This document shows, one piece after another, positions 9,808 through 25,982 of a DNA stretch of 64,000 nt; the stretch's first letter is position 1; every line of letters starts with the position of its first letter. The position numbers and the translations under genes were made by a program. The stretch is taken from the NCBI RefSeq assembly GCF_002750975.1, contig NZ_PEJS01000001.1:3472001-3536000 (forward strand), read 5' to 3'. The DNA comes from Stenotrophomonas indicatrix (lineage in GTDB: Bacteria; Pseudomonadota; Gammaproteobacteria; Xanthomonadales; Xanthomonadaceae). The notes under the pieces are model-generated. The model saw only the letters and a program-made list of their open reading frames with translations, did no database searches and was not told the DNA's origin.

Positions 9808-10122
9808 TCGGCAGGGCTGCGCCCTGCACCTGCCGACGCCAAGGCAACGGCAACGGCAACGGCCGAAGCAACAGCGGGCATTCCGTGGGATGGCGGGGTG
9901 GGTCCGGTTGCGGGGGACGCCGTAAACCCATCCCTGGGGGCTTGGCCGCGGCATCCATGCCGCGGACACCCCCGCAACCGGACCCACCCCGCCTTCGACA
10001 GTTGTCCGCTGCTCTTGGGGGTGTCGACCTTGGTCGACACGGCATGGCCTGCTCTTGGTGGGTGTCGACCTTGGTCGACACAGTAGATCCACGCCATGCG
10101 TGGATCTACATAAAACCGGTGC
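9808..10122. other. Geneless interval holding hairpin repeat and GTCGAC REPs
   Basis: No coding sequence is supported. It contains hairpin repeat copy A (9892-9993), two GTGTCGACCTTGGTCGACAC palindromes (about 10020-10082) and a GTAGATCCACGC/GCGTGGATCTAC palindrome (about 10083-10111) next to the gnd stop. Confidence 0.8.
9892..9993. repeat. Covarying hairpin repeat, copy A
   Basis: The left arm 9892-9916 (25 nt) is the exact reverse complement of the right arm 9969-9993. The 52-nt core 9917-9968 starts ACGCCGTAAACCCATCCC and contains an inner palindrome CCGCGGCAT-CC-ATGCCGCGG (CCATCC side). The same core occurs at 23413, 23705 and 25905 with different arms. This copy lacks the longer outer flanks shared by the other three. 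Confidence 0.92.
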
Positions 10123-11028
10123 TTACGACTTCTTGATGGCGTGGCCGCCGAATTCATTGCGCATCGCTGACAGCAGGCGGTCGGTGAACGAATTGGATTC
10201 GCGCGAACGCAGGCGTTCGAGCAGCGACAGGGTGATCACCGGGGCCGGTACGTCCAGCGCGATCGCTTCGGCGACGGTCCAGCGGCCTTCACCGGAATCT
10301 TCCACGTACGGTGCGATGCCATCCAGCGCGGGATTGCGCTTGAGTGCTTCGGTGCTGAGGTCCAACAGCCACGAACGCACCACGCTGCCGTGGCGCCAGA
10401 CCTCGGCCACCTGCGCCAGGTCCAGTTCCATCTCCTGCTTGCGCTCCATCAACGCGAAGCCTTCGGCGTAGGCCTGCATCATTCCGTACTCGATGCCGTT
10501 GTGGACCATCTTGGTGAAGTGGCCTGCGCCGGAAGGGCCGACGCGCGCCCAGCCGCGGTCCTCGGCCGGTGCCAGCGTGCGCAGCAGCGGTGCGATCTGT
10601 TCGACCACCGCTGCATCGCCACCCACCATCAGGCTGTAGCCTTCCTGCAGGCCCCACACGCCGCCGCTGGTGCCGCAGTCCACGTAGCCCAGGTCATCTT
10701 CGGCCAGCGCCTTGGCGCGACGGATCGAGTCCTGGTAGTTGGAGTTGCCACCGTCGATGACGATGTCACCTTCGGCCAGGTGCGGGGTCAACTGGCCCAG
10801 CGTCTGGTCCACGGTCTCGCCGGCGGGCACCATCAGCCACACCACGCGCGGCACCGGCAGCGCGGCCACTGCTGCGGCCAGCGAATCAACCACCTCCAGG
10901 CCGGCCTCGGCGGCGCGCTGGCGGGCGCCCTCGCCCGGGTCGTAGCCGACAACGCGGTGGCCACCGCGGTGCAGGCGCTGGGCCATGTTGGCGCCCATCC
11001 GGCCGAGGCCGATCATTGCAATATCCAT
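10123..11028 (-). CDS. gnd: 6-phosphogluconate dehydrogenase, decarboxylating, short form
   Basis: A 301-residue enzyme of the short (about 300 aa) 6PGDH class. It oxidatively decarboxylates 6-phosphogluconate to ribulose 5-phosphate. The dinucleotide motif is GLGRMG (7-12), the substrate-binding IDGGNSNY segment is present, and the catalytic region reads GAGHFTKMVHNGIEYG. Short forms lack the C-terminal duplication of the E. coli enzyme and are often NAD-preferring; cofactor choice is not proven here. The next gene ends 10 bp upstream, so it may be the last gene of a unit with the two exported proteins. Confidence 0.92.
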   Translation of the reverse strand: MDIAMIGLGRMGANMAQRLHRGGHRVVGYDPGEGARQRAAEAGLEVVDSLAAAVAALPVPRVVWLMVPAGETVDQTLGQLTPHLAEGDIVIDGGNSNYQDSIRRAKALAEDDLGYVDCGTSGGVWGLQEGYSLMVGGDAAVVEQIAPLLRTLAPAEDRGWARVGPSGAGHFTKMVHNGIEYGMMQAYAEGFALMERKQEMELDLAQVAEVWRHGSVVRSWLLDLSTEALKRNPALDGIAPYVEDSGEGRWTVAEAIALDVPAPVITLSLLERLRSRESNSFTDRLLSAMRNEFGGHAIKKS

Positions 11029-11038
11029 TGTTTCACCT

Positions 11039-12292
11039 TCAGTTGGGGTCTAGGGTCAGGCTGCCTGGCCTGCCGGTGGCTGCGCAGTGGCGCAACTGCG
11101 CCTCGCGCCAACGCCGGTAGAGCGTGGTATGCAGATTGTGCAACGCCAGGTCGATGGAAAACGGCGTGCGCGGATTCCGGTCGAGCAGGCGGATGATGTG
11201 GTAGCCGACAGGACGTATACCGCGTGGGTGCGCGTAGATCACGAACTGCTGGTAGAACGGATCGTCCAGCAACTGGTCCATCTGCTGCACGACGTCACGA
11301 TAGCGCGGGGCCAGCTGCGCACGCAGCGCTGGATCGCGTTCGTACAGCAACCGCTCGAAATAGCGTTGGCCGACACGCGGAATGCCCTGCGCCAGCTGCC
11401 ACAGGGCACGGTTGCGCTGGTCATACCAGGCCAGGCCACCGTGCTCCGCCAGTGCCTGCGCCGCGCCTTCGCCCACCTCCACCACGACGAAGTTCTCCGC
11501 CTGGTTGCTCAGATCGTCCAAGGTGCCTTTGTCGAAGACGTGCTCGATGAAGGCCGGCAGCCCGACAAAGGCCTGCCGCCCCATCGCCGACGTGCGCACG
11601 GCCTTGCCGTCGGCCATGAACTGGCCGGCCTGCGCGCCCAGCAGGATGCTGTCGGTGTCGTGCAGGCCAAGGAACGTGCCGATGGACAGTTCGGCGGGCG
11701 CGAATTCCGCATCGAAGGCCGCATCGCCGTACAGCTCGCGCTGCGTGGCCAGCTGCGCGACCTGGCGGCCGACGCCGCACTCGGCGCGAACGTGGCCCGT
11801 ATAGAACGCATCCAGTGCGCGGCTGTTGCTGGCGGCAGGCACATAGCCACGACCGAAGCTGCGCACCCGCTGCCATCCCTGTGCCGGAGCACCGCGTGCG
11901 CCAAAGCCGATCCAGCCCAGCTGCACACCGGTGAAGCGGAAGGATTCATTGTCCTGCAGTGCCTGCGTAGCGCGTTGCACGGCAGCGCCCAGTTCAAAGG
12001 CGTAGGCGCAGACCGTGGCCGGGTCATCCAGCAACTGCTGCAACAGGGCCTGCCGGTCGGCCGCGGCCAGCGTTCCCGGCCAACGCACGCGCAGATCACC
12101 GGCCGCCTGCGCCTCGGCCAGCGAGGCACGCGTACACACCGGCCCACCCTGTACCTGTGGCGTGGTGATCGCTGCGGTTTCAAAGCGCCATCCCAGCCGC
12201 TGCAGCAGGCCTTGGCTGCACTCGGCCGTAGCGGCCAGCGTGCTCAGGGGCCAGCCCAACAGCAGGGCCCACGCCATCACCCTGCCGCGCAC
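11039..12292 (-). CDS. Exported protein of unknown function
   Basis: A 417-residue protein with an N-terminal signal peptide (hydrophobic run about 6-20, ending near TLAA-T) and no further membrane segment, so probably periplasmic. I do not recognise the family. It has several Cys (ECSQG, PVCTRA, TVCAYA, AECGVG, RHCAAT). The segment around AECGVGRQVAQLATQRELYG looks like a conserved core, and there is a tyrosine-rich C-terminal half. It ends 10 bp before gnd and begins 2 bp after the DUF2242 gene stop, so the three are probably cotranscribed. No catalytic assignment is offered. Confidence 0.75.
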   Translation of the reverse strand: MRGRVMAWALLLGWPLSTLAATAECSQGLLQRLGWRFETAAITTPQVQGGPVCTRASLAEAQAAGDLRVRWPGTLAAADRQALLQQLLDDPATVCAYAFELGAAVQRATQALQDNESFRFTGVQLGWIGFGARGAPAQGWQRVRSFGRGYVPAASNSRALDAFYTGHVRAECGVGRQVAQLATQRELYGDAAFDAEFAPAELSIGTFLGLHDTDSILLGAQAGQFMADGKAVRTSAMGRQAFVGLPAFIEHVFDKGTLDDLSNQAENFVVVEVGEGAAQALAEHGGLAWYDQRNRALWQLAQGIPRVGQRYFERLLYERDPALRAQLAPRYRDVVQQMDQLLDDPFYQQFVIYAHPRGIRPVGYHIIRLLDRNPRTPFSIDLALHNLHTTLYRRWREAQLRHCAATGRPGSLTLDPN

Positions 12293-12294
12293 GC

Positions 12295-12912
12295 TCAGCC
12301 CTGGTCCGTTGCTGCCGGCGCTGGTTCGGGCTCAGGCCCGGCAGGAGGCTGCGGCGACGCGGCCGGTTGCGGTTGCGGCTCTGGCTTCGCTGCCGCTGGC
12401 AGGTACTGCTGCAGGCGCTGGAAGAAGCGCCGATAGAACTCGGCATCGGTGATCGTGCTGCTGGCCACTTTCACCAGTGAGTCGTCATTGCTGCCGAACG
12501 GCAGCGACACCGAGCCCAGCGCGCCCACGCCCACACTGGCCGAGGTCGGGCTCTTCTTCAGTGCATAGCGGTCCTGCACGGCGCTGACGAACACCAACGC
12601 CTGACTGCCACGCGGCGCGCACGAGATACGCAGTACCAGCTGCTCATGGTCGTCCTCGCGCGGCTGGAAGTTCTTGTTGCCTTCCACCTGCGCATCGTCC
12701 GAGCGTGCGATCGCATAGCCCTGGCTGAGCAGCGTGCGCCGGGCTGCTTCGCAGGCTTCGGCCGGACGGCCATCGACGGTGCGCGAGAAGGTGTCGCCGG
12801 AGTCGAAGGACTCCCGCAACAGGCTGCTGTCGGCGGCACGGCCGCCACAGGCGGTCAATGCCAAGGCACTGGTGGCGGCCAGCAGGGAAGCAGAAAGAAG
12901 GGAGGCCCGCAT
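12295..12912 (-). CDS. DUF2242-family lipoprotein
   Basis: A 205-residue lipoprotein. Starting at 12912 gives a clean lipoprotein signal with lipobox LTAC (Cys about residue 22), preceded by GGAGT; the frame stays open to 12957, but that start would misplace the signal. The DUF2242 core (about 40-165) includes DTFSRTVDG, two Cys (EACEAAR and ISCAPRG) and FVSAVQDRYALKKS. A Pro/Gln/Ala-rich tail (about 172-205) follows. The function of DUF2242 is unknown. It is the first gene of a probable unit with the downstream exported protein and gnd. Confidence 0.82.
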   Translation of the reverse strand: MRASLLSASLLAATSALALTACGGRAADSSLLRESFDSGDTFSRTVDGRPAEACEAARRTLLSQGYAIARSDDAQVEGNKNFQPREDDHEQLVLRISCAPRGSQALVFVSAVQDRYALKKSPTSASVGVGALGSVSLPFGSNDDSLVKVASSTITDAEFYRRFFQRLQQYLPAAAKPEPQPQPAASPQPPAGPEPEPAPAATDQG

Positions 12913-13014
12913 GGGTACTCCTGCGAAGACGTTATCCCCGAGGGTAGCCCCCTGCACGTGTGCGCCGGGTCGAAAACACCGGGCCCGTCCGCCACCGTTG
13001 TACCCGGTTCATGC

Positions 13015-13079
13015 AAAAAGGGGACGGAAGGATCAAGTCGTTTGTGCCACTAACGACTTGATCCCTCCGTCCCCTTTTT
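13015..13079. repeat. Long palindrome (28-bp stem), also likely bidirectional terminator
   Basis: The left arm 13015-13042 and right arm 13052-13079 pair over 28 bp with one mismatch around a 9-nt loop. The ends are A5/T5, so each strand gives a GC stem followed by T5. The GGGGACGGA motif resembles palindromes scattered in many proteobacteria near RAYT-type transposases; that link is from memory. It lies 7 bp past the prc stop. Confidence 0.85.
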
Positions 13080-13086
13080 CAGTCAA

Positions 13087-15264
13087 TCAGTCGGCCCAGC
13101 GGCCTGCGGCGGTGGACTGCGGCAGCACCTGCGCCGACAGCGGACGGTCGGCCTCCAGCAGGTTCACCGCGTCGGCCAGGATCGAGGCCGATTCACGCAG
13201 CAACGGATCCGGACGCTTCTCGGCGGCCTTCTCGCGGGCGGCATCCTTGACGATGTCGCGCTCGTTGCCGGTCAGGCCGTCATCGCTGCTGTCATCGGCC
13301 AGCGGGTCCAGGGCCAGGCCCAGTTCCTTGCGCACGATCTGGCGCTGCTTGCGCTGGGTGTCCTGGCGCTCGCGCTCGGCACGTCGGGTCGCTTCATTCA
13401 GCGAGACGTACTTCTTCGCCGCTTCAGTACGGAACTGCTCCACGTCCTCGTTCCACCACTGGAATTCCTTGTCGGTGGCGATGCGCGCGTCGTGACGCGT
13501 TTCCAGCTTCGGCAGCAGCGGCGCGAAGTTGCCGTACTGGGTGTGCGGCACCGCGGCGATGCGGGTCCACGGCAGGGCATTGTCGTAGGTGCTCTCGCCG
13601 AACTCGGTGGCATCGACGCTGGCCGGGAACGCCAGGTCCGGCACCACACCCTTGTGCTGGGTGCTGCTGCCGCTGATGCGGAAGAACTGGGCGATGGTCA
13701 GCTTCACCTGGCCAAAGCGCTGGGCTTCGCCACTCGGCCAACGGTCCAGGTCAACGATGTTCTGCACCGTGCCCTTGCCGAAGCTGGTTTCACCGATGAC
13801 CAGGCCGCGGCCGTAGTCCTGGATGGCACCAGCAAAGATCTCCGACGCCGAGGCCGAACCACGGTTGATCAGCACGGCCAGCGGACCGTCCCATGCCACG
13901 CCCTGGTTGCGGTCGCTGTTGACGGTGACCCGGCCACCGGATTCGCGCACCTGCACCACCGGACCCTGCTCGATGAACAGACCGGTCAGCTCGATGGCCT
14001 CATCCAGCGAACCGCCACCGTTGTTGCGCAGGTCCAGCACCACGCCGTCCAGCTTGTCGGTCTTGAAACCGGCCAGCAGCTTGGCCACGTCGCGGGTGGC
14101 CGACGCGTAATCGGTGGCGTTGCGACGACGGCCTTCGAAGTCCTGGTAGAAGGTCGGCAGCTTGATCACGCCGACCTTGCGTGCCGGCTCGCCATTGACG
14201 GCCGGGATGGTCATGGTCTCGCCCTTGGCGGCCTGTTCGGCCAGGCGCACCTTCTGCCGGGTCAGCACCAGGGTGTGGTGCTTGCCGTCGACGCCCGCTT
14301 CGGCCGGAATGAACTCCAGCTTCACCTGGGTGTCCTTGGCGCCACGGATCTTGGCCACGACATCATCGATGCGCCAGCCGATCACATCTTCCACCAGCCC
14401 GGACTTGCCCTGGCCGACGCCGACGATGCGGTCACCCGGCTTCAGCGTGCCGTCCACGGCCGCCGGACCACCGGCGATGATCTCGCGGATCACCACCACG
14501 TCGTCCTGGCGCTGCAGCTGCGCGCCGATGCCTTCCAGCGACAGCGACATCGCCTGATTGAAGTTCTCGGCGGTGCGCGGGGTGAAGTAATCGGTGTGCG
14601 GATCAACCGCGCTGGTGTAGGCGTTCATGAAGAACTGGAAGGTGTCTTCGCCCTTCAGCTCGTTGACCGACTTTTCCAGGGTGGCGTAACGCTTGTCCAG
14701 CGTCTTGCGGATGTCATCGGACTTCTTGCCGGCCAGCTTCAGGCGCAGCCAGTCATTCTTCACCGACTTGCGCCACAGCTCGTCGAGCTCGGCGTTGGAC
14801 GCTGCCCACGGCACGTCCTTGCGGTCGTACTCGAAGCGCTCGTCGGTGGTGAAATCCGGTTCCTGCTTCAGCAGCTTGCGCGCATAGGCCACGCGCTCGC
14901 CGACGCGCTGCTTGTAGACCGCAAACACCTGGAAGGCCGGCTCCAGCTCGCCGCCGCGGATGGCATTGGCAATGCCGGCCTGGAACGGTGCGAAGCGGGT
15001 GATGTCGGCCTGGGTGAAGTACTGCTTGCCGCCGTCCAGTGTCTCCAGGTAGCGCTTGAACACATCCTTGGAGGTGGCTTCATCGAGCGCACGCGGGCGA
15101 TAGGCGTAGCGGCTGTCGGACAACAGGCCGTAGACCAGCTTGGAGGTGGTCACCTGATCGGCGGTAGCCGCCGCCGGCAACGCCGGCGAGTCGGCCTTGG
15201 CCGCCAGCGCCAACGGCGCAACCAGCGCCAGGGCCATCAGGAATGCGGGGGCTTTGAATTTCAT
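13087..15264 (-). CDS. prc: Tail-specific periplasmic protease Prc (S41)
   Basis: A 725-residue C-terminal processing protease. The signal peptide is about 1-22. An N-terminal helical domain is followed by a PDZ domain (about 235-330, with GIGAQLQRQDDVVVIREI and KPGDRIVGVGQG). The S41 core has the catalytic Ser in NRGSASASEIFAGA and Lys in ETSFGKGTVQ. A C-terminal helical region of the Prc type ends the protein. It trims periplasmic proteins, including peptidoglycan hydrolases in other species, which fits the murein genes downstream in this window. Its own transcript is bounded by the 13015 palindrome. Confidence 0.94.
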   Translation of the reverse strand: MKFKAPAFLMALALVAPLALAAKADSPALPAAATADQVTTSKLVYGLLSDSRYAYRPRALDEATSKDVFKRYLETLDGGKQYFTQADITRFAPFQAGIANAIRGGELEPAFQVFAVYKQRVGERVAYARKLLKQEPDFTTDERFEYDRKDVPWAASNAELDELWRKSVKNDWLRLKLAGKKSDDIRKTLDKRYATLEKSVNELKGEDTFQFFMNAYTSAVDPHTDYFTPRTAENFNQAMSLSLEGIGAQLQRQDDVVVIREIIAGGPAAVDGTLKPGDRIVGVGQGKSGLVEDVIGWRIDDVVAKIRGAKDTQVKLEFIPAEAGVDGKHHTLVLTRQKVRLAEQAAKGETMTIPAVNGEPARKVGVIKLPTFYQDFEGRRRNATDYASATRDVAKLLAGFKTDKLDGVVLDLRNNGGGSLDEAIELTGLFIEQGPVVQVRESGGRVTVNSDRNQGVAWDGPLAVLINRGSASASEIFAGAIQDYGRGLVIGETSFGKGTVQNIVDLDRWPSGEAQRFGQVKLTIAQFFRISGSSTQHKGVVPDLAFPASVDATEFGESTYDNALPWTRIAAVPHTQYGNFAPLLPKLETRHDARIATDKEFQWWNEDVEQFRTEAAKKYVSLNEATRRAERERQDTQRKQRQIVRKELGLALDPLADDSSDDGLTGNERDIVKDAAREKAAEKRPDPLLRESASILADAVNLLEADRPLSAQVLPQSTAAGRWAD

Positions 15265-15582
15265 TGACGTGCTCGAAGGCGCCTTGCCAAGGGGGAGACT
15301 GCAGGGTGTTCAGACACCACGACAGTGCCGAAAGTTGCCGGGTTTGTCACCCGTCCACTTCCAGTGGAAAACCAGCCTAGCGGGGCCGGTGTAGCAAATT
15401 GTGAATGGCTGAAGAGCGGCCCACCTTGCGGTGACGTCTATCAGGTTACGGAGGCCGTCGGGTTGCAAGCCCCCTGAGTCAGGGGGCGGCCGCGAAGCGG
15501 CGGGGGTGTGGGTGGTGGTAAGCCGGGGCCCACGGTGTGCGCAGCACACCGTGGGAAGCGGTAGCGCGCATCGCGCAACCGC
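15265..15582. other. Intergenic region with stacked hairpins between prc and lipA
   Basis: No gene is seen. Past the lipA stop there are GC-rich palindromes: CCCACGGTGTG / CACACCGTGGG (about 15529-15555), CCCCCTGA / TCAGGGGG (about 15470-15487) and a GCGGT...ACCGC repeat near 15558-15582. One or more may end the lipA transcript. The prc promoter must lie in about 15265-15430. Confidence 0.6.
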
Positions 15583-16593
15583 TTACTGGACGCCGGCGCC
15601 CTTGGCCTGTACGTCGGCGTGGTACGACGAGCGCACCATCGGGCCGGAGGCCACGTGGCTGAAGCCCAGCTCGTAACCGTAGACTTCCAGCGCCTTGTAG
15701 TCGTCCGGGGTCCAGTACTTCAGCACCGGGTGGTGGTGCGCGGTCGGCTGCAGGTACTGGCCGATGGTGATCATGTCCACATTGTGCGCACGCAGGTCGC
15801 GCATGGTGGCCTTGATCTGTTCGAAGTCTTCGCCCAGGCCCAGCATGATGCCCGACTTGGTCGGTACGTCAGGGTGCTGCGCCTTGAAGTTCTTCAGCAG
15901 GTTCAACGACCACTGGTAATCGGCACCCGGGCGCACGTTGCGGTACAGGTCCGGCACGGTTTCGATGTTGTGGTTGAACACGTCCGGCGGGTTCTGCGCG
16001 AGGATCTCCAGTGCGCGCTCCATGCGGCCCTTGCCGCGGAAATCCGGGGTCAGCACTTCGATGCGGGTGCCCGGCGACTTCTGGCGGATGGCGGTGATGC
16101 AGTCGACGAAGTGCTGGGCACCGCCGTCGCGCAGGTCATCGCGGTCGACGCTGGTCACCACCACGTACTTCAGGCCCATGTCGGCCACGGTCTGGCCCAG
16201 GCTGGCCGGCTCGTTGGCATCGGGCGGCTTCGGCCGGCCGTGTGCCACGTCGCAGAACGAGCAGCGGCGGGTGCAGACCTCGCCCAGGATCATGAAAGTG
16301 GCGGTGCCGTGGCCGAAGCATTCGTGGATGTTCGGGCAGCTGGCTTCCTCGCACACGGTCACCAGGCGGTTCTCGCGCAGCTTGGCTTTCAGGTTCTGCA
16401 CGGCATTGCCCGAAGGAATGCGCACGCGGATCCAGGAGGGCTTGCGCAGCACCGGCACGTCGGCGAACTGCACCGGCGAACGGTTGATCTTGTCCCCACC
16501 CATCTGCTTGACCCCGGCCTGCAACGGCGCGGTGGACGGAAGCTCGGCCTGCACGATCTGCAGGGGAATGGTGCGGGCAGTGGTTTCAGTCAT
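15583..16593 (-). CDS. lipA: Lipoyl synthase
   Basis: A 336-residue radical SAM enzyme that inserts two sulfurs into octanoyl-carrier domains. The auxiliary cluster motif is [12 protein letters not shown] and the radical SAM cluster motif is [10 protein letters not shown]. The conserved C-terminal RSSYHAD signature is present. It follows lipB by 17 bp in a ybeD-lipB-lipA operon, so octanoyl transfer and sulfur insertion are made together. Confidence 0.97.
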
Positions 16594-16610
16594 GGCGTTT
16601 CCGGGGGCGG

Positions 16611-17324
16611 TCAGGCGGCCGCAGAGAGATCAGGCAGTTCAGGCACGGGCTGCAGCAGCAGGCCGAACTGGCGGGCCAGGTGGTCCAGCAGCACCGGCTT
16701 GACGGCGTCCATCCCGGACGGACCGCCCAAGTCTAGCACCGTGGTCACCTGCAACCCCTCGTAACCACAGGGGTTGATGCGGTGGAAAGGATCGAGGTCC
16801 ATGGCCACGTTGAAGGCCAGGCCGTGGAAGGTGCAGCCGCGCCGCACGCGGATGCCGAGCGCGGCGATCTTGGCGCCGCCGACGTAGACGCCCGGGGCGC
16901 CATCGAGCCGTTCGGCACCGATGTTCCATTCCGCCAGGGTATCGATGATGGCCTGCTCGATGCGGCATACGTAGTCGCGCACGCCGATGCCCAGCCGCGG
17001 CAGCCGCAGCAGCGGATAGATCACGATCTGGCCGGGGCCGTGGTAGGTCACCTGGCCACCGCGATCGACGTGGACCACCGGGATCTCACCCGGCGCCAGC
17101 ACGTGTTCGACCTTGCCGGCCTGGCCCAGGGTGAACACCGGATCGTGCTCGACCACCCACAGCTCGTCCAGCGTGTCATCGTCGCGCTGGTCGGTGAAAC
17201 GCTGCATGGCGTGCCAGACCGGCTCGTAGGCCTGGCGCCCCAGGTCACGCACTACCGCCGGGCGCGGCGGGCGCGCCTCGGGGGCAGCCGCTTCGGCAGG
17301 ACAGCTGACGGCTACACCGTCCAC
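16611..17324 (-). CDS. lipB: Octanoyl-[ACP]-protein N-octanoyltransferase
   Basis: A 237-residue LipB that moves octanoate from ACP to lipoyl domains. [12 protein letters not shown], the catalytic Lys in [22 protein letters not shown] and the catalytic Cys in NPCGYEG are all present. The N-terminal 20 or so residues before [10 protein letters not shown] are an extension; the true start could be slightly internal. The start chosen overlaps the ybeD stop by 13 bp. Confidence 0.95.
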
Positions 17325-17590
17325 TTCACTTCCGGGTGGTCGCGCAGGGCCTGGTGGGCCACGTCGTACTGTTCACGGTTCTCGGCCCGGAAGACCAGGC
17401 GCACCGAGACGTACTTGCCGTTGGACGAATGCTTCCAGCTGATGCGCTCGTTCACCACGTCAACGCCAGCAGCCAGCAGCAGGCGGGGGAGTTCATGCTC
17501 CAGGCCGCGGTTGGCCGGGCCCATCGCGCTGAGCTCGAACTGACCGGGGAACTGGAAGCCGTGTTCGGGGTTGTCGGACTTGATTTCCAT
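17312..17590 (-). CDS. ybeD: DUF493 (YbeD) family protein
   Basis: A 92-residue protein with the ferredoxin-like YbeD fold pattern ([28 protein letters not shown]). The frame is open to 17686, but ATG 17590 gives the family length (E. coli YbeD is 87 aa) and an N-terminus beginning MEIKSDNP. The dacC / ybeD / lipB / lipA order matches E. coli. The family is thought to act in lipoate-related regulation; this is not established. Confidence 0.88.
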
Positions 17591-17870
17591 GCGCCCATTA
17601 TCGGGCCGCAGGGCAACAAACCCAAGAGTATTCATGTAAGCCGGCGGCACTGCGGGCGGGCCGCTGCGTTGCAGCTGAACATCCATTCAGGCTGGGACCC
17701 ACCTCCCAGGGCCCCTGCCCCATCGCTGCGGCTTCACCTGCGGTAACCGATTGTATCGATCAGACAATGTTGTTTTCGGAACAGACAAGTGATCCCAGCG
17801 CGCTCGTTCCATCACAGCGCCGGGAGTACCGTGTCGTTGCATAAAACGACAGACAAAAGCCCCCTTCCCG

Positions 17871-18944: not shown

Positions 18945-18966
18945 GCGAGGGGCTGATGGTGAAGCG

Positions 18967-19088
18967 GGTAGGTGCCGACCGTTGGTCGGCACACCGGATT
19001 GAATCGCTCGCTGTAAGCGAGGGGCTGCGTCCGCCGGGCATGGCCCGGCGCTACCCGATCATCGGTAGCGCCGGGCCATGCCCGGCGG
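18967..19088. repeat. GTAG REP cluster after the LpxR-like gene
   Basis: One GTAGGTGCCGACCGTTGGTC palindrome (about 18969-18992) is followed by an inverted pair of GCCGGGC/GCCCGGC REPs (about 19030-19088). A 17-nt GCTCGCTGTAAGCGAGGGG stretch at the lpxR stop is duplicated just downstream (about 18935 and 19006). Confidence 0.8.
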
Positions 19089-19097
19089 AACCCTACG

Positions 19098-19124
19098 AAA
19101 AAGGCCGGCATTCGCCGGCCTTTT
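19098..19124. terminator. Bidirectional rho-independent terminator
   Basis: AAAAGGCCGGC / GCCGGCCTTTT around a 4-nt loop separates the convergent lpxR-like and dacC genes. Confidence 0.85.
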
Positions 19125-19148
19125 CCATTCACCGCAGCAGGCTGCGGA

Positions 19149-20366
19149 TCATTCCGATTCCCACCACATCCAGAAGCTGTCCCACAGGCGCTTGAAGAAG
19201 CCGGCCTGCTCGACGGCGGCCACAGCCACCAGCGGCGCTTCGGCCACCAGCTTGCCATCCAGGGTGACCTTGACGGTGCCGATCTGCTGGCCAGCGGTGA
19301 ACGGCGCTTCCAGGGTCTTGGGCACGTCGATGCTCGGCTTCAGGTCGTTGTAGCGACCGCGCGGCACGCTGACCAGCATCGGCTGCGCCACGCCCAGCTG
19401 CACCTTGTCAGTGGTGCCCTTCCATACCTTGTGCTCGGCCACGGCCTTGCCCGGCTCGTACAGGCGGTGGGTCTCGAAGAAGCGGAAGCCCCAGTTCAAC
19501 AGGGCCAGGCTGTCATCGGCGCGCTGCTTTTCCGACGCGCCGCCCAGCACCACCGCGACCAGGCGCTGGTCACCGCGCTGGGCCGAGCTCATCAGGCAGT
19601 AGCCGGCCTCGGAGGTGTGGCCGGTCTTGATGCCGTCCACGCTGCCATCGCGCCACAACAGCAGATTGCGGTTGGGCTGCTTGATGGTGCCGACCTGGAA
19701 TTCCTTGATCTTGTTGTACGCGTAGGTTTCCGGGTAGTCGCGCACCATCGCGCGGCCCAGCAGGGCCAGGTCGTAGGCGCTGCTGTGATGGCCCGGGGCG
19801 GTCAGGCCGTGGGCGTTCACGAAGTGCGAGTTCTTCATGCCGATCTTGGCGGCGTAGCTGTTCATCAGCGAAGCGAAGGCTTCTTCGCTGCCGGCCACGT
19901 GCTCGGCCAGGGCGATCGCGGCGTCATTGCCGGACTGGATCGCCATGCCCTTTTCCATGTCTTCCAGGCGCGCGGTCTGGTTGACCGGGAAGCCGCTGTA
20001 GCTGCCGTCGGTGCCGGCACCACCTTCGCGCCAGGCGCGTTCGCTCATCATCACCTGGTCATCGGGACGGACCTTGCCGTTCTTGACCTCGGCGGCGATC
20101 ACGTACGACGTCATCACCTTGGTGATGCTGGCCGGGGCCAGCTGTTCGTTGATGTTCTCGCCTGCCAGCACCTGGCCGGTGGCGTAGTCCATCAGCACCC
20201 AGGCCTTGGAAACGCTGGGTGCAGGCGCCGGCGGCGTGGCCACGGTGGCGGGGGCAGCAGCGGCGGCAGGCGCCGGGGTGGCCGGGGTCGGCAGCGGCGT
20301 CTGGGCGGAGGCCAGGCCCACCACCAGGGTGGCGGCCAGGGCAGTGGCGGCGGAACGGAAATTCAT
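19149..20366 (-). CDS. dacC: D-alanyl-D-alanine carboxypeptidase (PBP5/6 type)
   Basis: A 405-residue low-molecular-mass PBP that trims the terminal D-Ala of murein pentapeptides. ATG 20366 gives a signal peptide ending near ASA-Q; the longer frame to 20441 would bury it. A Pro/Ala-rich linker (about 23-52) precedes the catalytic domain with S80-x-x-K83, the SGN triad and KTGHT. The PBP5 C-terminal domain and an amphipathic anchor helix (FKRLWDSFWMWWESE) complete the family layout. It follows rlpA by about 100 bp, in the conserved mltB-rlpA-dac order. Confidence 0.93.
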   Translation of the reverse strand: MNFRSAATALAATLVVGLASAQTPLPTPATPAPAAAAAPATVATPPAPAPSVSKAWVLMDYATGQVLAGENINEQLAPASITKVMTSYVIAAEVKNGKVRPDDQVMMSERAWREGGAGTDGSYSGFPVNQTARLEDMEKGMAIQSGNDAAIALAEHVAGSEEAFASLMNSYAAKIGMKNSHFVNAHGLTAPGHHSSAYDLALLGRAMVRDYPETYAYNKIKEFQVGTIKQPNRNLLLWRDGSVDGIKTGHTSEAGYCLMSSAQRGDQRLVAVVLGGASEKQRADDSLALLNWGFRFFETHRLYEPGKAVAEHKVWKGTTDKVQLGVAQPMLVSVPRGRYNDLKPSIDVPKTLEAPFTAGQQIGTVKVTLDGKLVAEAPLVAVAAVEQAGFFKRLWDSFWMWWESE

Positions 20367-20468
20367 GGGACAGCAGGCTCCAGGGGACGGCCGGAAAATG
20401 AAGGATGGGGCGAGGTGGCCATTGTAAGGCCGAGGTGGCAAGGGCCGGCAGCACCGGCCCGGGCGGAA

Positions 20469-21713
20469 TCAGTCCTTGACGATCTGTGGCGAGCCAAAGC
20501 CCAGACCCGAGATGCGCCCGGCAAGTTCCGCCGCGCTGGCATGGTCGCTGGCGGGTACCCGCAGGCGCCACAGGGTACGACCACCGGCAGCGATGTCGCT
20601 GATGGTGGCACCGACGATGCCGGCAGCGTTGAGCTGGCCCATCGCCCGGTTGGCGTTGTCGCGGTTGGAGAAGCTGGCGACCTGCAGCATCACCGCGCCC
20701 ACCACCTTCTGCGACAGGCTGGGGCTGCTGGCCGGGGCCGGGCTGCGCGGCATGGCGGTGGCCACGACCGGCGCTGCCGGACGCGATGCGGGTGCGCTGG
20801 GCGGCAGGCTGCTGACCGCCACTTCCGGCATCGTGCTGACAGCGGCCTGGGTGGTAGCCGGCTGGCCGCGCTCGGGCGCGGCGTCGGCCGGCAGGCGCTT
20901 GACCAGTCGATCGATGTCGCTGTCGGCAACCGCACGTGCGGCGGGTGCGGGGCGTGCGCTGGCAACGGCAGCGGTAGCCGTAGCCGCTTCAGCAGCACGG
21001 CGTTCGCGGCGCGACGGCTTCTGCGCCATCAGGTTGGTTTCACCCGGCTGCACTGCGCGCACTTCCACGTTGCCGGTACCGCGCTGGGTGATGCCCAGGC
21101 GCACAGCGGCGGCGTAACTGAGATCGACCACGCGGCCATCGTGGAACGGGCCACGATCATTGACGCGCACGATCACCGATTCGCCGTTGTCCAGGTTGGT
21201 CACGCGGGCGAAGCTGGGCAGCGGCAGGGTCTTGTGCGCAGCGGTGAACTGGTACATGTCGTAGACCTCGCGGTTGGAGGTCAGGCGGCCATGGAACTTG
21301 GCGCCGTAGTACGAAGCGGTGCCGCGTTCAACGTAGTTGCGGGTGTCGTCGAGCACCTTGTACTGCTTGCCCAGCACCACGTAGGGCGACTTGTTGCCGA
21401 TCGCCGAGCGATCCTCATTGGTCACCACCGGCTCGGGAATACAGGCCACGTTGGGCACGTAACTGGGCGTGGTGTCTTTCACGCCGGGCTTGTACAGGCC
21501 ACCGGCGGTGTAGTTGCCACGGGTGGACAGGTCCTCGGTGGCCGCCGCGTACGGCGAGCCCTCCGGACAATGCGCCGGACGCCCGCCCTTGCCCTGCACA
21601 ACCGTGCCGGACGGCTTGCCACCGTGGCCGGCGGTCGCCGGCTTTTTCGGCGCGCTGCTGCAGGCGGCCAGCGCGAGGACGATCAATCCAGGGACCAGCC
21701 ATCTGATGTTCAT
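20469..21713 (-). CDS. rlpA: Septal ring lipoprotein / lytic transglycosylase RlpA
   Basis: A 414-residue lipoprotein (lipobox LAAC, Cys18). The double-psi beta-barrel of RlpA is central (GTASYYGAKFHGR, ... VRVNDRGPFHDGRVVDLS, with the catalytic Asp of the NDRGPF motif). A long Ala/Pro-rich linker and a C-terminal SPOR domain (about 335-410) that binds denuded glycan strands follow. In Pseudomonas, RlpA cleaves naked glycans at septa. The start overlaps the mltB stop by 4 bp. Confidence 0.93.
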   Translation of the reverse strand: MNIRWLVPGLIVLALAACSSAPKKPATAGHGGKPSGTVVQGKGGRPAHCPEGSPYAAATEDLSTRGNYTAGGLYKPGVKDTTPSYVPNVACIPEPVVTNEDRSAIGNKSPYVVLGKQYKVLDDTRNYVERGTASYYGAKFHGRLTSNREVYDMYQFTAAHKTLPLPSFARVTNLDNGESVIVRVNDRGPFHDGRVVDLSYAAAVRLGITQRGTGNVEVRAVQPGETNLMAQKPSRRERRAAEAATATAAVASARPAPAARAVADSDIDRLVKRLPADAAPERGQPATTQAAVSTMPEVAVSSLPPSAPASRPAAPVVATAMPRSPAPASSPSLSQKVVGAVMLQVASFSNRDNANRAMGQLNAAGIVGATISDIAAGGRTLWRLRVPASDHASAAELAGRISGLGFGSPQIVKD

Positions 21714-22858
21714 GCCGGGGGCAGCTCCTGTCCGGCAATGGCCTGCGACAACTGGAACACGGCCATCGCGTACATCTTCGAGAGGTTGTAGCGGGTGATT
21801 GCGTAGTAGTTCTGGAAGCCCAGCCAGTACTGCTTGCCGGTGCTGCCTTCAAGGGTGATCGGGGTAGCAGCGGCACCGGGCTGCACCGGCGCGCTGGGCT
21901 GGTAGCCGCGCTGGGCCAGGTCGGCCAGCGACCAGGTGGGCATCCACTCGGTCGGGTTGAACTCCTCGCGGCCGGCGGCGAGCGTGGCCGGCACGGCAAC
22001 CTGGCCGCCGCGCACCCAGCCGCCCTTCTTCACGAAGTAGTTGGCGATGGACGAGAACACGTCGTCGTAGCTGGTGAACAGGTCACGACGACCATCGCCA
22101 TTGCCGTCCACGGCGTAATCCAGGTAGCTGGAGGGCATGAACTGGCCCATGCCCATCGCACCGGCATAGCTGCCCTTGAGCGTGGTGATGTCCAGCTTTT
22201 CCTCGCGACCCAGCTCGAACAGCTTGGCCAGTTCATCGCGGAAGAACAGCTCGCGGCGCACTTCGCGCTCCAGCTTGGCCGGGTCGCCACTGCGCGGGTA
22301 ATAGAAGGCCAGGGTGTACAGCGCATCGAGCACGCGATGGCTGCCGGCATTCTTGCCGTAGCTGGTTTCCACGCCGATGATCGCCACGATCACTTCCGCC
22401 GGTACGCCGGTGCGCTGCTGCACACGGTCCAGTTCGGCGCGATGCTGGGCAAGAAACGCCTTGCCGCCATCGATGCGTGCCTTGCTGATGAACATCGGCC
22501 GGTATTCGTTCCACGGCTTGACCCGTTCGGCCGGCCGCGACATGGCGGCGATGATCGGCTGGCGCACCTGCGCCTGGTCGAGCACGTTGCGGATCTCGTC
22601 GGGCTTGAGGCCGTAGCGCTTGGCGGTGTCGGCAATGAATCTGGCGCGCGCGGTCTCGAAGGGCACCGGGGTGAGATCGACCGGTGCTGCCGTGGCCGCG
22701 GTCGCTTCCGGCGCGGCCTCGGCCGGGCCGTGGGGCTTGGCCGCCGGGTGGCGCGGCGTACTGCTGGCCTGTGGCGAAGTCGGTGGGGACGTCGGCTGGG
22801 TCGCGCAGGCGACCAGGCCGAGGGTGAGCATGCAGGCCAGAGAACGTCGAATCATCAC
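21710..22858 (-). CDS. mltB: Membrane-bound lytic murein transglycosylase B
   Basis: A 382-residue lipoprotein (lipobox LVAC, Cys18). The catalytic Glu is in IIGVETSYGKN, and the family motifs YAGAMGMGQFMPSSY and DGDGR-like YAVDGNGDGRRDL are present. It cuts murein glycans to 1,6-anhydro ends. It is probably the promoter-proximal gene of mltB-rlpA-dacC; about 1 kb without genes lies upstream. Confidence 0.94.
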   Translation of the reverse strand: MMIRRSLACMLTLGLVACATQPTSPPTSPQASSTPRHPAAKPHGPAEAAPEATAATAAPVDLTPVPFETARARFIADTAKRYGLKPDEIRNVLDQAQVRQPIIAAMSRPAERVKPWNEYRPMFISKARIDGGKAFLAQHRAELDRVQQRTGVPAEVIVAIIGVETSYGKNAGSHRVLDALYTLAFYYPRSGDPAKLEREVRRELFFRDELAKLFELGREEKLDITTLKGSYAGAMGMGQFMPSSYLDYAVDGNGDGRRDLFTSYDDVFSSIANYFVKKGGWVRGGQVAVPATLAAGREEFNPTEWMPTWSLADLAQRGYQPSAPVQPGAAATPITLEGSTGKQYWLGFQNYYAITRYNLSKMYAMAVFQLSQAIAGQELPPA

Positions 22859-22903
22859 CGCAGGTTAGCAGGTCATGGATGAATTAAAACCCCTAACACC
22901 ATG

Positions 22904-22970
22904 AATCACAACGATTTGCACGCGTTCAGCGCGAAATGTGAAGACGTTGTGATTGACCTGCCCCATTCAG
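22904..22970. promoter_or_regulatory. Inverted repeat upstream of mltB
   Basis: AATCACAACG and its exact complement CGTTGTGATT are separated by about 35 bp. The repeat could be a pair of operator half-sites or an RNA stem in the mltB leader. The minus strand between it and the ATG contains TTTTAATTC. Confidence 0.45.
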
Positions 22971-23188
22971 GCAGAGGTTGCCGGTTGCGTCCCCATCCCC
23001 GCAGACGCAACCGGCCGCCGGACCCGGTCGGTACCTGCGCGGCTGCCGCTCCCCAGTGGCAGTGCTCCGCGCTCCCTGTACCCGTTGGATCAGTACTGCT
23101 TTCCCATCCGACGCCCCTCGCGCTGCATCAAAGACGGCGCGCCATGCCGAACGGGCCGCCATTGTGCAGGCCGATTGCGACAAGTCCA

Positions 23189-23202
23189 TTGATCAGGATC
23201 AA
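23189..23202. promoter_or_regulatory. FNR/ANR-like box
   Basis: TTGATCAGGATCAA matches the FNR consensus TTGAT-N4-ATCAA exactly. On the minus strand a CACAAT hexamer (23161-23166) sits where the -10 of a class II FNR promoter would fall. Its target is unclear: mltB lies about 330 bp downstream in that direction. Confidence 0.5.
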
Positions 23203-23386
23203 CGCGGCGTCAAAATGTGAATTGGCGCCCACTTTTAATGGAACTTCGTCAGCGGCGATGCTGCTGTGCGGCGTTGTGGGAACGATTACAGAAATGCGCT
23301 TGCGCAGATTCATGCGCGCATCGGCGGCGAAGGTCGGCCAACGGCGCAGCCCCTCGTGGGTGGGCGCAAAGCGATTCATGAGGGTT

Positions 23387-23490
23387 GGCCGGGTAGATGG
23401 GCTGCGCAGGGGACGCCGTGAACCCATCCTTGGGGGCTTGTCCGCGGCATCCATGCCGCAGACACCCCTGCGCAGCCCATCTACCCGGCC
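23387..23490. repeat. Covarying hairpin repeat, copy B
   Basis: The left arm 23387-23412 and right arm 23465-23490 are exact 26-nt reverse complements. The 52-nt core 23413-23464 is in the same orientation as copy A, with three substitutions relative to the C/D consensus. Outer flanks shared with C and D (inverted) extend to about 23329 and 23522. Confidence 0.93.
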
Positions 23491-23679
23491 ACGGACAGGT
23501 TCCTGCAGCTTCCACCCACGCAAAGAGAAAAAAGAAGAGCGAAGAGCAACAGCGGGTCGCTTCGCTCTGAGCCGAGCGTGGGCTCGGCTCTACAGGAAGC
23601 GTGGGCAACCGGCCATGCTGCTTTTGCTTTTGATCTTTTTTTCTTCTTGCGTGGGTGGACGCTGCAGGAACCTGTCAGC

Positions 23680-23781
23680 GGCCGGGCGGGTGGATAGTGC
23701 GGGGTGTCCGCGGCATGGATGCCGCGGCCAAGCCCCCAAGGATGGGTTCACGGCGTCCCCGCACTATCCACCCGCCCGGCC
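23680..23781. repeat. Covarying hairpin repeat, copy C
   Basis: Arms 23680-23704 and 23757-23781 are exact 25-nt reverse complements. Core 23705-23756 is the 52-nt core in the opposite orientation to A and B. Flanks include GCGTGGGTGG (about 23649) and CCACCCACGAGGGGCTGCGC (about 23818), the latter reaching the rodA-like stop. Confidence 0.93.
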
Positions 23782-23853
23782 AGCCCTCAGCAATCCAGCT
23801 TTCCACGACCCACCCGCCCCCACCCACGAGGGGCTGCGCCGTTGGCTGGAAAC

Positions 23854-24930
23854 CTACGCGTGCACCGGCCGATGCCCCCGCACCGCCATCACCAGCCCGA
23901 TCCCCGCCAGCAACGACACCGCCGAGGTGCCGCCATAACTGATCAACGGCATCGGAATGCCCACCACCGGCAGCAATCCGGAAATCATCCCGCCGTTGAC
24001 CAGCACGTACACGAAGAACGCCAGGCCGAGGCTCCCAGCCAACAACCGCGCGTGCGTGTCGCGTGCCTGCACCGCGATCGACAGGCAACGCCCGACCACG
24101 AACAGATACAGCGCGAACACCACCACCACGCCAATCCAGCCGAATTCCTCGGCAAGCACCGAGAACGCGAAATCGGTGGTGTACTCGGGCAGGAAATCCA
24201 GCGTGGCCTGTGTGCCGTGGCCCCAGCCGCGCCCCTGCATGCCACCCGAGCCGATGGCGATGCGCGACTGCAGGATGTTCCAGCCGGTGCCCAACGGATC
24301 GGCAGCCGGATCCAGGAAGGTCAGCACGCGATTCTTCTGGTATTGCCGCAGCAGCCCGAACCAGGCCAACGGCGCAGCCACCGACACCGCGCCCAGTCCG
24401 GCCGCCACCCAGCGCCACTGCAGGCCCGCCAGCAGCAGGGCGAACACGCCGCTGGCGGTGACCAGGGTGGCAGTGCCGAGATTGGGCTGCATCAGGATCA
24501 GCAGCGCTGGCACCCCGATCAGTACTGCGGCCGTCAGCACCGTGCGCGGCGATGGCGGCAGCGGCTGGCGGTGCAGATACCAGGCCATCATCAACGGCAG
24601 GCTGAGCTTGAGCAGTTCCGAAGGCTGCAGGTAGAACACGCCGAGGTTGAGCCAGCGCTGCCCGTATTTGCCGGTGCCGATCACGTACACCGCCATCAGC
24701 GGCAGCATCGACAGTGCATAGATCGCCGGCGTCCACGCGCGCAGGCGCAGCAGCGAAACCCGCGACAGCAGCCACATCGCTGCCAGGCCACCGGCAAAGC
24801 GCATCGCCTGCCCGTGCACCGGCCCGTTCACGCTGTGCAGCACCGCCAGGCCTGCGCCCATCAGGATCAACAACGCGATCAGCAACGGCAGATCGATCGT
24901 GCGCAGCGCCTCACGGCAGCCACCAAGCAT
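23854..24930 (-). CDS. Second RodA-type SEDS glycosyltransferase (paralogue)
   Basis: A 358-residue polytopic SEDS protein, clearly homologous over its whole length to the RodA encoded at 26040-27152. The SEDS core QPNLGTA, FLPEYTTDFAFSVLAEEFG (with the catalytic Asp after TT) and PLISYGGTSAVSLLAG is intact. After GW it reads GHGTQ, closer to E. coli RodA (LHGTQ) than the other copy (GEGSQ). The start is uncertain: the frame stays open to 25053, adding a Lys/Ser-rich 41-residue leader; ATG 24930 aligns with the first copy. It is a likely active rod-wall polymerase, separated from mrdA by the inserted segment. Confidence 0.85.
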   Translation of the reverse strand: MLGGCREALRTIDLPLLIALLILMGAGLAVLHSVNGPVHGQAMRFAGGLAAMWLLSRVSLLRLRAWTPAIYALSMLPLMAVYVIGTGKYGQRWLNLGVFYLQPSELLKLSLPLMMAWYLHRQPLPPSPRTVLTAAVLIGVPALLILMQPNLGTATLVTASGVFALLLAGLQWRWVAAGLGAVSVAAPLAWFGLLRQYQKNRVLTFLDPAADPLGTGWNILQSRIAIGSGGMQGRGWGHGTQATLDFLPEYTTDFAFSVLAEEFGWIGVVVVFALYLFVVGRCLSIAVQARDTHARLLAGSLGLAFFVYVLVNGGMISGLLPVVGIPMPLISYGGTSAVSLLAGIGLVMAVRGHRPVHA

Positions 24931-25353
24931 TCGTTTCCATTTCACCCGCGGCACGGTAGCAACCGGCGCTTTCGCGAAGCTGTCAGCGCTGTTTGACGCT
25001 ATCGACTCCTTCGGCGACAACTGCCTTGGGCGCCCGGATTTTTCGGGTTTCAAACAATTCTGATTGGAGCCGCAAGGGCCCCGTGCACATCATGTGCGGC
25101 CACCGACAACGGGTGGCACGGGACTCCAATCCCGTTTGATAGATGCGTTGTTTACGCTTGCCAGCCGGCGTCGCTTTTTCCTTGTTGAGCGGCGTCGGCT
25201 GGCAATCCGTCCGTGCGTCTTTGGCGGGCGGTGCGTGGAGGGCCTCGTGCCCGCCGGCGTTCCAGCGTCTATCACCGGTATTGGAGCCACGCATCGCCTG
25301 CCACCCTCGCCTCCACGCGGGGTGGCCCTTGCCGACCGCACGAGGACCCCGCC
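24931..25353. other. Geneless leader region with compact RNA-like fold
   Basis: There is no gene apart from the possible rodA N-terminal extension (24931-25053, minus). From 25062 the sequence is densely self-complementary (see the structured element 25062-25326). A TTGACG hexamer at 24993 is a possible plus-strand -35, but the -10 is weak. Confidence 0.6.
25062..25326 (+). ncRNA. Candidate structured RNA leader (three-way junction plus three hairpins)
   Basis: GATTGGAG (25062-25069) pairs with CTCCAATC (25124-25131). Inside, CCCGT (25080-25084) pairs with ACGGG (25118-25122) and encloses two adjacent hairpins: GCACAT/ATGTGC (25085-25097) and GCCACC/GGTGGC (25099-25117). There follow a 17-bp stem (25158-25174 with 25189-25205), GGCGGGC/GCCCGCC (25223-25255) and GCCACCC/GGGTGGC (25300-25326). 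A second ATTGGAG at 25280-25286 could compete for CTCCAAT. The strand is inferred from the plus-strand gene 28 bp downstream. No known RNA family is recognised. Confidence 0.6.
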
Positions 25354-25764
25354 ATGTCCGCTTCCACCTACCCATACCTGTTCGCCACGCTGGGCGAGGC
25401 TGCTCACCAGCTGCCGCATGACATCGCCCGCGCGCTGGAAACCACGCTCACTGCAACGCAGGCCGCCAACGCGCCCGGCGGCCCTACCCTGCTGGACTGC
25501 CTGCAGCGCATCCGCCAGGTGGAAGCGGCAGATGGCCAGCCGTGGCCGAGCAAAGGGCGAACGCAAGCGCAGCGCATGGCGATGGCACGCATCGACCGCG
25601 CCAATGCCGGGCTGACCTTCCTGCTGGAACTGCTGCACGCCAGCGAACGCATGCGCGTGGACGGCGACGACACGCAGCATCTGCCCGACGACGCCCGCGA
25701 AGGCCTGCTGCTGGCCTGCCGAGGCCTGTCGGAATATGTGGATGTGCAGCTGCAGGCCGCGTGA
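25354..25764 (+). CDS. Small soluble protein of unknown function
   Basis: A 136-residue, probably all-helical cytosolic protein; no signal peptide or membrane segment and no family recognised. The start at 25354 has GAGG 8 bp upstream; the frame is open to 25213 but that part lies in the structured leader. Charged and Ala/Leu-rich helices (RALETTLTATQAA, RMAMARIDRANAGLTFLLEL) alternate with short loops, and there are two Cys. It lies alone on the plus strand between the two rodA paralogues and looks inserted into the rod-shape operon with its leader. Confidence 0.7.
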   Translation: MSASTYPYLFATLGEAAHQLPHDIARALETTLTATQAANAPGGPTLLDCLQRIRQVEAADGQPWPSKGRTQAQRMAMARIDRANAGLTFLLELLHASERMRVDGDDTQHLPDDAREGLLLACRGLSEYVDVQLQAA

Positions 25765-25782
25765 CGCGTGCATTCCTGAAGA

Positions 25783-25804
25783 GCCGAGCATGGCTCGGCA
25801 CTAC
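25783..25804. repeat. GTAG REP (GCCGAGC/GCTCGGC type)
   Basis: GAGCCGAGCATGGCTCGGCAC followed by TAC, just past the stop of the small gene. It begins the shared flank of hairpin repeat copy D. Confidence 0.7.
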
Positions 25805-25878
25805 AAAGAGCGAAGCGACCCGCTTCTGCTCTGCTTTATTTCTCTTTGCGTGGGTGGCCACCGCAGGAAACTGTCAGA

Positions 25879-25982
25879 GGCCGGGCGGGGTGGGTTCGCG
25901 GGGGTGTCCGCGGCATGGATGCCGCGGCCAAGCCCCCAGGGATGGGTTCACGGCGTCCCCCGCGAATCCACCCCGCCCGGCC
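25879..25982. repeat. Covarying hairpin repeat, copy D
   Basis: Arms 25879-25904 and 25957-25982 pair over 26 bp with a single G-T position, which would be a G-U wobble in RNA. Core 25905-25956 matches copy C except at one site. Shared flanks: GCGTGGGTGG near 25848 and CCACCCACGAGGGGCTGCGC near 26008, reaching the rodA stop at 26040. Confidence 0.93.

Follow-up and report, generated by a model that had tools for sequence, protein, structure and literature searches.

A dispersed repeat of the wider YPAL/RU-2/Ysr224 family in Stenotrophomonas indicatrix and its predicted two-site CsrA/RsmA ligand

Described relatives and the extent of the repeat family

The Yersinia palindromic sequences known as YPAL or RU-2 (De Gregorio 2006, as cited in PMC2229807, PMC2267715 and PMC2759123) are described as mobile, with target duplications of 3-26 bp, empty and filled sites and near dyad-symmetric targets, and roles in mRNA stability were proposed earlier for both YPAL and ERIC (according to PMC2229807). 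Ysr224, the corresponding Rfam family (RF02770), is listed as temperature-responsive (PMC9029176), and several of its copies are reported to be differently expressed in Y. ruckeri biofilm (PMC12112432). Here we describe an element that occurs in four copies within a 64,000-nt stretch of the Stenotrophomonas indicatrix genome (4.56 Mb, nine contigs), the whole of which we call the window, and that comprises complementary arms around an enclosed 52 nt. One of its strands, the GGA strand, can be drawn as a long stem bearing two hairpins with GGA-containing loops, and we lean towards the view that the element is a mobile repeat whose GGA-strand transcripts expose a two-site ligand for CsrA/RsmA, a global regulator of metabolism, motility and virulence.

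Sequence and model comparisons place the element in the wider YPAL/RU-2/Ysr224 family. The printed RU-2 sequence (PMC2759123) has, by eye, the same core, with both loops and the junctions on the same strand, while a copy from Yersinia proxima (L229) is matched at the same place, on opposite strands, by the Ysr224 model (100.9 bits) and by R1, our covariance model of the element (62.1 bits), as is a copy from Sodalis (L231; 82.9 and 62.8 bits respectively). Copy 3 of the window gives a Ysr224 match of 36.7 bits (E 1.9e-7, model positions 1-107) on the strand opposite to its R1 match; because no match in the whole window or in locus L012 reaches the Ysr224 gathering score of 70 bits, the Stenotrophomonas element is a relative within the wider family and not a Ysr224 match in the Rfam sense. 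It is dispersed and intergenic, as YPAL/RU-2 and Ysr224 are, but Stenotrophomonas copies have other arms and often lie in divergent pairs. A preliminary description of this DNA knew of no described family with such a layout, and on that point it is superseded.

Two other groups of repeats bear comparison. The repetitive extragenic palindromes (REPs) of the GTAG/CGTC type are also dispersed palindromes in which head-to-head dimers predominate, but their stems are of 5-13 bp (according to PMC3733652). Identity with a GTAG REP was rejected, as the preliminary description had also held, there being no conserved GTAG beside a short stem in the aligned copies. ERIC/RU-1 is likewise an intergenic imperfect palindrome of Gammaproteobacteria, and what it shares with the element is, we presume, a short resemblance. 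Matches of the element to microRNA-like Rfam families were dismissed as long-hairpin matches under their gathering scores.

Model matches are present in 75 of 91 Stenotrophomonas genomes, in 65 of 369 genomes sampled from the class (57 of 271 genera) and in 33 of 398 sampled from the phylum, the best 48, 12 and 11 matches per genome, respectively, having been scored; all 33 of the last are labelled as the same class or closer, the out-of-class share of the 398 not being shown. A scan of public genomes, which required both GGA loops and was used only for arm asymmetry and distribution, returned at least 119 stretches, and the 80 with titles are all from Gammaproteobacteria or from metagenome-assembled genomes labelled only Proteobacteria. 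They include Stenotrophomonas, Xanthomonas, Arenimonas, Marinobacter, Microbulbifer, Alteromonas, Shewanella, Vibrio, Idiomarina, Rheinheimera, Alcanivorax, Methylocucumis, Ectothiorhodospira, Yersinia proxima and Sodalis, among others. A search of plasmids for the element found nothing. Within the S. indicatrix genome the core pattern has 89 matches at up to three mismatches, against none for the reversed pattern, and R1 has at least 143 strong matches of 67.7-109 bits, the next score down being 37.1 bits; 143 is a floor, the 150 best of 5544 first-look candidates having been scored.

Fold, strand and loops of the element

Over 88 aligned columns the GGA strand is drawn as an outer stem P1 (18 pairs modelled, about 25 real) enclosing hairpins P3 (7 pairs) and P2 (3 + 4 pairs with a conserved UUYAC bulge), joined by short junctions. 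The preliminary description had reported four copies with complementary arms, one G-T pair in copy 4, and a core that occurs in both orientations and contains an inner palindrome; all of this was found, and the palindrome is P3. The enclosed 52 nt are nevertheless not the fixed loop it supposed, since they hold two further covarying hairpins. Alignment A2, an ungapped set of 41 of 84 S. indicatrix copies with less than 90% core identity, shows pairing in 95.7% of stem cells, against 69.5 +/- 0.9% in shuffles, and changes on both sides in 23 of the 32 stem pairs, so that covariation extends from the arms of P1 to both inner stems, P2 and P3. When the partner is slid by 1-3 columns pairing falls to 39-45%, although this control is biased toward the structure, which was drawn from the same sequences.

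The preliminary description had proposed a genome-wide search with the core as its own check, and this bears out the arms. Uninterrupted cores are present in 84 of the 89 pattern-defined copies (five with an expanded P3, considered below, are excluded from all 84-copy counts), and each of 25 arm positions is Watson-Crick in 73-84 of the 84. The arms are not near-identical overall, there being 64 distinct arm pairs, yet a large subgroup has nearly the same arms, which means that they are not independent in every copy. This covariation supports selection for a long stem around fixed loops. Of four copies folded computationally, all form P1 and three form P3, P2 being mostly paired otherwise than drawn; across the minimum-energy folds of the 84 copies, two GGA apical loops appear in 70 on the GGA strand and in none on the other. 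Some copies, reading GTGAGC...GCGACC (e.g., L062, L073), have facing GA/GA in place of two Watson-Crick pairs at the P3 base, which is compatible with tandem sheared G.A pairs.

A Watson-Crick palindrome is the same on both strands, but a change in one arm that reads as G.U on one strand reads as A.C on its complement. Over the 25 arm positions of the 84 copies, 42 pairs are G.U on the GGA strand and 7 are G.U on the strand that was first described. Counting distinct arms on the GGA strand, with a pattern that required CA and YG in the loops and not GGA, the ratio of G.U to A.C is 34:2 in S. indicatrix (64 arm pairs), 35:10 in the genus (75), 6:3 in the class (12) and 136:10 in the public genome set (132), with a pooled p of about 1e-37, where a strand-blind DNA process should leave roughly equal numbers. 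Because its arm mismatches are mostly G.U and not A.C, the informative strand is not that of the preliminary description but its reverse complement, which suggests that Rfam may hold the Ysr224 family on the less informative strand. The asymmetry identifies the strand and not the molecule: the bias would be expected from selection on RNA, from selection on single-stranded DNA or from transcription-linked mutation of the GGA strand, and it does not separate RNA from single-stranded DNA because G.T outlasts A.C in single-stranded DNA hairpins too.

In the 84 copies the P3 loop is CATGGATG, invariant except that its last base is once A instead of G, and all 84 P2 loops read CANGGAYG (N being T in 42, G in 27, A in 13 and C in 2; Y being T in 47 and C in 37), although conservation of P2 in this set is partly a product of selection, because the pattern that defines it (up to three mismatches over 31 bases) covers most of the P2 loop; P3 lies outside it. 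We recounted the loops in all model matches regardless of their loops, at 72 S. indicatrix loci (105 copies; L002 and L003, and thus copies 2 and 3 of the window, fall outside this sample) and at 28 loci of other families (40 copies). CANGGAYG was found in 104/105 P3 and 103/105 P2 loops of S. indicatrix, and among copies of other families and orders in 36/40 P3 loops (GGA in 39/40) and 37/40 P2 loops (GGA in 40/40), a conservation that is not fully independent, as R1 was built from such loops and rewards them. At position N, three or four different bases occur in either hairpin of the other-family copies and in P2 of S. indicatrix, and the two GGAs are 20 nt apart in alignment A2. Exceptions in S. 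indicatrix are one P3 loop (CATGGATA) and two P2 loops (one CAAAGACG, one with a long insert); in other families they are CAGGGAAG, CATGAATG, CAGGGAGG and CAGGAAG for P3, and CAGGGAGG, CAGGGAAG and CAGGAATA for P2. At L006 1142-1303 the P2 loop has an insert of about 74 nt, and among orthologues of the site of copies 2 and 3 it reads, by eye, GAA in L277 and GGAG in L300.

In five S. indicatrix copies (L062, L066, L084, L086 and L099) a three-hairpin module of about 80 bp takes the place of the P3 loop, and two of its loops, by eye, hold GGA on the GGA strand (AGGAC and AGGACA, the latter AGGATA in L086). These copies look interrupted, and an insertion sequence in the P3 loop was considered and rejected, the insert being this short module followed by the rest of the core. 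The module carries a covarying palindrome of its own (GAGGCATGCCTC, GGCGCATGCGCC, GTCGCATGCGAC), and the relatives L293 (truncated) and L311 are also expanded. GGA hairpin loops are further enriched on the GGA strand in the 5' flanks of S. indicatrix copies (24/84, against a shuffled mean of 6.4 and 6 on the other strand), with no such enrichment in the 3' flanks (1/84, against 4.9 and 7); one 5'-flank hairpin, for example, reads GACAGAT-CGCGGAA-ATCTGTC.

A predicted CsrA/RsmA ligand and competing explanations

Systematic evolution of ligands by exponential enrichment (SELEX) gave CsrA/RsmA the consensus RUACARGGAUGU, with ACA and GGA fully conserved and located chiefly in hairpin loops, and a CsrA dimer is reported to bridge sites 10-63 nt apart, with an optimum above 18 (both PMC7652899); cross-linking and immunoprecipitation (CLIP) gave AUGGA in apical loops (PMC5652223). 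With ANGGA in apical loops, two sites and a spacing inside the bridging range, the element has the sequence expected of a CsrA/RsmA-binding RNA and is a predicted ligand, a match that was found after the fact and is suggestive. We propose that the copies belong to a dispersed repeat of Gammaproteobacteria whose GGA strand would fold into P1, a stem of about 25 bp and free sequence, followed by P3 and P2, each with a CANGGAYG apical loop, the two loops together forming a putative bivalent ligand for the CsrA/RsmA dimer. P1 would be needed merely as a stem, which would allow compensated drift copy by copy while the loops stay fixed. The element most likely spreads in the manner of miniature inverted-repeat transposable elements or REPs and would be read as part of intergenic or 3' untranslated region (UTR) transcripts. 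Many copies may jointly bind and buffer RsmA, or tether it to the very mRNAs in which they lie; that Stenotrophomonas transcribes the GGA strand, and that RsmA binds to it and is buffered by it, is in each case inferred.

Regulators of the CsrB/RsmY/RsmZ type are single or few dedicated small RNAs (sRNAs). The element resembles them, and RsmU of Xanthomonas, in having hairpins with GGA loops, and differs in being a dispersed repeat with its two sites on a long stem. RsmU derives from a 3' UTR and is described as novel, and for the related genus Xanthomonas the known sequestering sRNAs are reported to lack a homologue in every sequenced genome (PMC7694677). Applied to S. indicatrix, the Rfam model of CsrB found nothing, while matching an E. 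coli control; the RsmY and RsmZ models were not run genome-wide. A bolder proposal, which we offer tentatively and think rather doubtful, is that many Gammaproteobacteria possess a genome-wide, repeat-encoded CsrA/RsmA buffer, in which dispersed hairpins (more than 100 in the genome studied) spread like transposable elements, replace or supplement sponge sRNAs, and tie the level of free regulator or local mRNA fate to chromosome-wide transcription. A dispersed repeat with two consensus sites on display would in any case be a mobile and unforeseen source of RNA that binds the regulator, and would provide a function for a repeat family described in 2006-2007. Within the literature searched, what is new is how far the element extends across the class, the evidence on its strand and the two loops of CsrA/RsmA type, the Yersinia relative being already known. 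The available text of PMC2229807, PMC2267715, PMC2759123, PMC3733652 and PMC12112432, all of which name YPAL or Ysr224, never mentions CsrA (the original 2006 description lies outside this comparison), and that of PMC9029176 has it only in one sentence on Bacillus and in its references, with no link to YPAL/Ysr224.

The S. indicatrix genome has csrA, and CsrA is found in 313 of the 369 genomes of the class sample. Among those of good quality it is present in 55/56 with the element and 225/258 without (p 0.015), a comparison confounded by phylogeny, and common descent alone could account for the co-occurrence.

Several observations weigh against a CsrA/RsmA ligand. Taking all element-bearing genomes of the class, CsrA is present in 60/65 (p 0.085); of the five without a match, G122, G183, G214 and G455 are 67-88% complete, but G309 is 98% complete, and two others of its family do have CsrA. 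In the four copies tested, the structure as drawn is less stable than the computed minimum by 3.6-8.3 kcal/mol, and one of the four prefers a fold without P3 and P2; of the 84 minimum-energy folds nine have no GGA loop and five only one. SELEX ligands have stems mostly of four pairs or fewer, and very stable stems are thought unfavourable (PMC7652899), whereas P3 has seven. The Rfam model of Ysr224, which in Yersinia is an expressed sRNA, represents the complement of the GGA strand. At the pair formed by copies 2 and 3, the one pair scanned, a consensus scan found no sigma-70-like promoter, and thus not the promoter of its own that would mark a dedicated sRNA gene of the CsrB/RsmY/RsmZ kind. 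Two like copies paired on one transcript could anneal over 60 nt at 97% complementarity, hiding the loops, and such annealing might act as a switch. Individual copies are expendable, as the site of copy 1 shows (a strong copy in 12 of 30 loci, our own included). Finally, orientation to genes is not fixed. In S. indicatrix a gene was called on the 5' side of the GGA strand for 88 copies, and in 52 of these it runs in the direction of that strand; taking the 5' and 3' genes together relative to that strand, the arrangement is same and anti in 28 copies, anti and anti in 25, same and same in 23, and anti and same, the divergent starts, in only 11, with two incomplete. The public set has 26 copies in sense and 38 in antisense, by a crude gene caller that puts 34 of 133 copies inside a called open reading frame. 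This mixture counts against a simple 3'-UTR model.

The main rival, which we consider unlikely, holds that the element is mobilised as folded single-stranded DNA and that its loops are what is recognised in the process, comparable to REP hairpins and TnpA-REP, and that the match to CsrA is coincidental. It would suit a dispersed family whose Yersinia members are described as mobile, with target-site duplications and empty and filled sites (PMC2229807), and which has many strong copies in S. indicatrix and, at one site, different cores or swapped copy types between species. It leaves aside, however, that the fixed and free loop positions are those of a CsrA site, with N free in both loops across families, and that the expanded copies carry extra GGA-looped hairpins. 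We give still less credence to a structural role in mRNA, in which a long hairpin between genes would stabilise or process the adjacent transcripts and the loops would matter little. This would agree with the position of the copies, 0/89 of which extend more than 40 bp into a called gene (by our own gene caller), and with the earlier mRNA-stability proposals for YPAL and ERIC (PMC2229807), but near-invariant loops (save N and Y) beside a stem of free sequence are left unexplained.

It seems improbable that the repeat is a device for long-range pairing or termination, in which divergent pairs would fold into giant hairpins or stop transcription between genes. The arrangement itself invites the idea: 82 of the 143 strong copies form 41 close pairs, where about 3.2 close neighbours are expected by chance, and in 40 of the 41 the GGA strands point outward, at a spacing of 211-513 bp (median 284). 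Against it, the other 61 copies are single, the sole terminator-like site at the window pair (23598-23619) is not on P1, and no loop consensus would be needed. Elsewhere, L341 (genome G655) has six same-strand copies about every 227 bp, a tandem array in place of divergent pairs. The other mechanism raised in the preliminary description, that the arms are complementary solely through palindrome-templated DNA copying with no selected fold, can be set aside as very improbable, since, although deletion-like remnants, core swaps and visible exchange among copies indicate that DNA-level processes act on these palindromes, copying should yield equal G.T and A.C where 136:10 and 34:2 are seen, the inner stems P2 and P3 covary too, and it is not needed for the arms, whereas the selection for a long stem offered beside it stands.

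The window copies, their turnover and their surroundings

Copy 1 occupies 9892..9993 with its GGA strand on the minus strand (P1 arms 9892-9916 and 9969-9993, P3 loop 9952-9959, P2 loop 9929-9936; R1 match 9899-9986 minus, 108.4 bits), and its arms pair exactly over 25 nt inside 28 nt at 96%. Copies 2 and 3 are the left and right members of a divergent pair. The former, also with the GGA strand on minus, lies at 23386..23491 (arms 23386-23412 and 23465-23491, 27 nt exact; P3 loop 23448-23455; P2 loop 23425-23432; R1 match 23395-23482 minus, 104.4 bits), and the latter, on plus, at 23680..23781 (arms 23680-23704 and 23757-23781, 25 nt exact; P3 loop 23714-23721; P2 loop 23737-23744; R1 match 23687-23774 plus, 106.1 bits). 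Copy 4, at 25879..25982, has its GGA strand on plus (arms 25879-25904 and 25957-25982, 26 nt with the one G-T, or G-U in RNA; P3 loop 25914-25921; P2 loop 25937-25944; R1 match 25887-25974 plus, 106.3 bits). The enclosed length is 52 nt in all four.

Comparison of sites between relatives shows that the element behaves like a mobile repeat, in that single copies can be dispensed with and sequence passes between them. At the site of copy 1, beyond the strong copies counted above, L318 has a weak one and L323 is a short contig. By eye, several loci have unchanged arms enclosing another core, L311 is expanded, and L308, L309, L316 and L325 retain short remnants of the kind expected from palindrome deletion between the arms. 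Copies 2 and 3 together form a cassette at 23337..23846, with no strand assigned, whose edges are 31-nt inverted repeats (23337-23367 and 23816-23846, 97% complementary). At least one match is present at this site in 26 of 30 loci (our own included); of the remaining four, L293 has an expanded copy, L297 a degraded one (by eye) and L284 and L296 none, and a check for target sites discerned no clean empty site by eye in loci including these last two. Seven loci have the arm type gggtagatgggctgcgca on the left (two of them with one base changed) and seven have it on the right, for which the simplest reading would be inversion of the cassette between its outer repeats. One S. indicatrix copy, L021, has core and arms reversed relative to its flanks.

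The pair of copies 2 and 3 lies between a transglycosylase gene and a second FtsW/RodA gene. Two genes matching FtsW/RodA/SpoVE are at 23854-24930 and 26040-27152, both on minus. Between these two genes, at 25217-25308 on plus, the Rfam C4 antisense RNA (RF01695) is matched at 48.3 bits. Adjoining copy 1 are repeats at 10021 and 10062 (window 10021-10081; GTGTCGACCTTGGTCGACAC), which we take to be GTAG-type REPs, and in the relative L303 the REP unit of this site is present in many tandem repeats at the same place. Runs of the hexanucleotides CAACGG, CAACAG and CAACGT abut the left side of many S. indicatrix copies of one element subclass, for example at 9840-9880 of the window, and the number of units beside this subclass differs among species.

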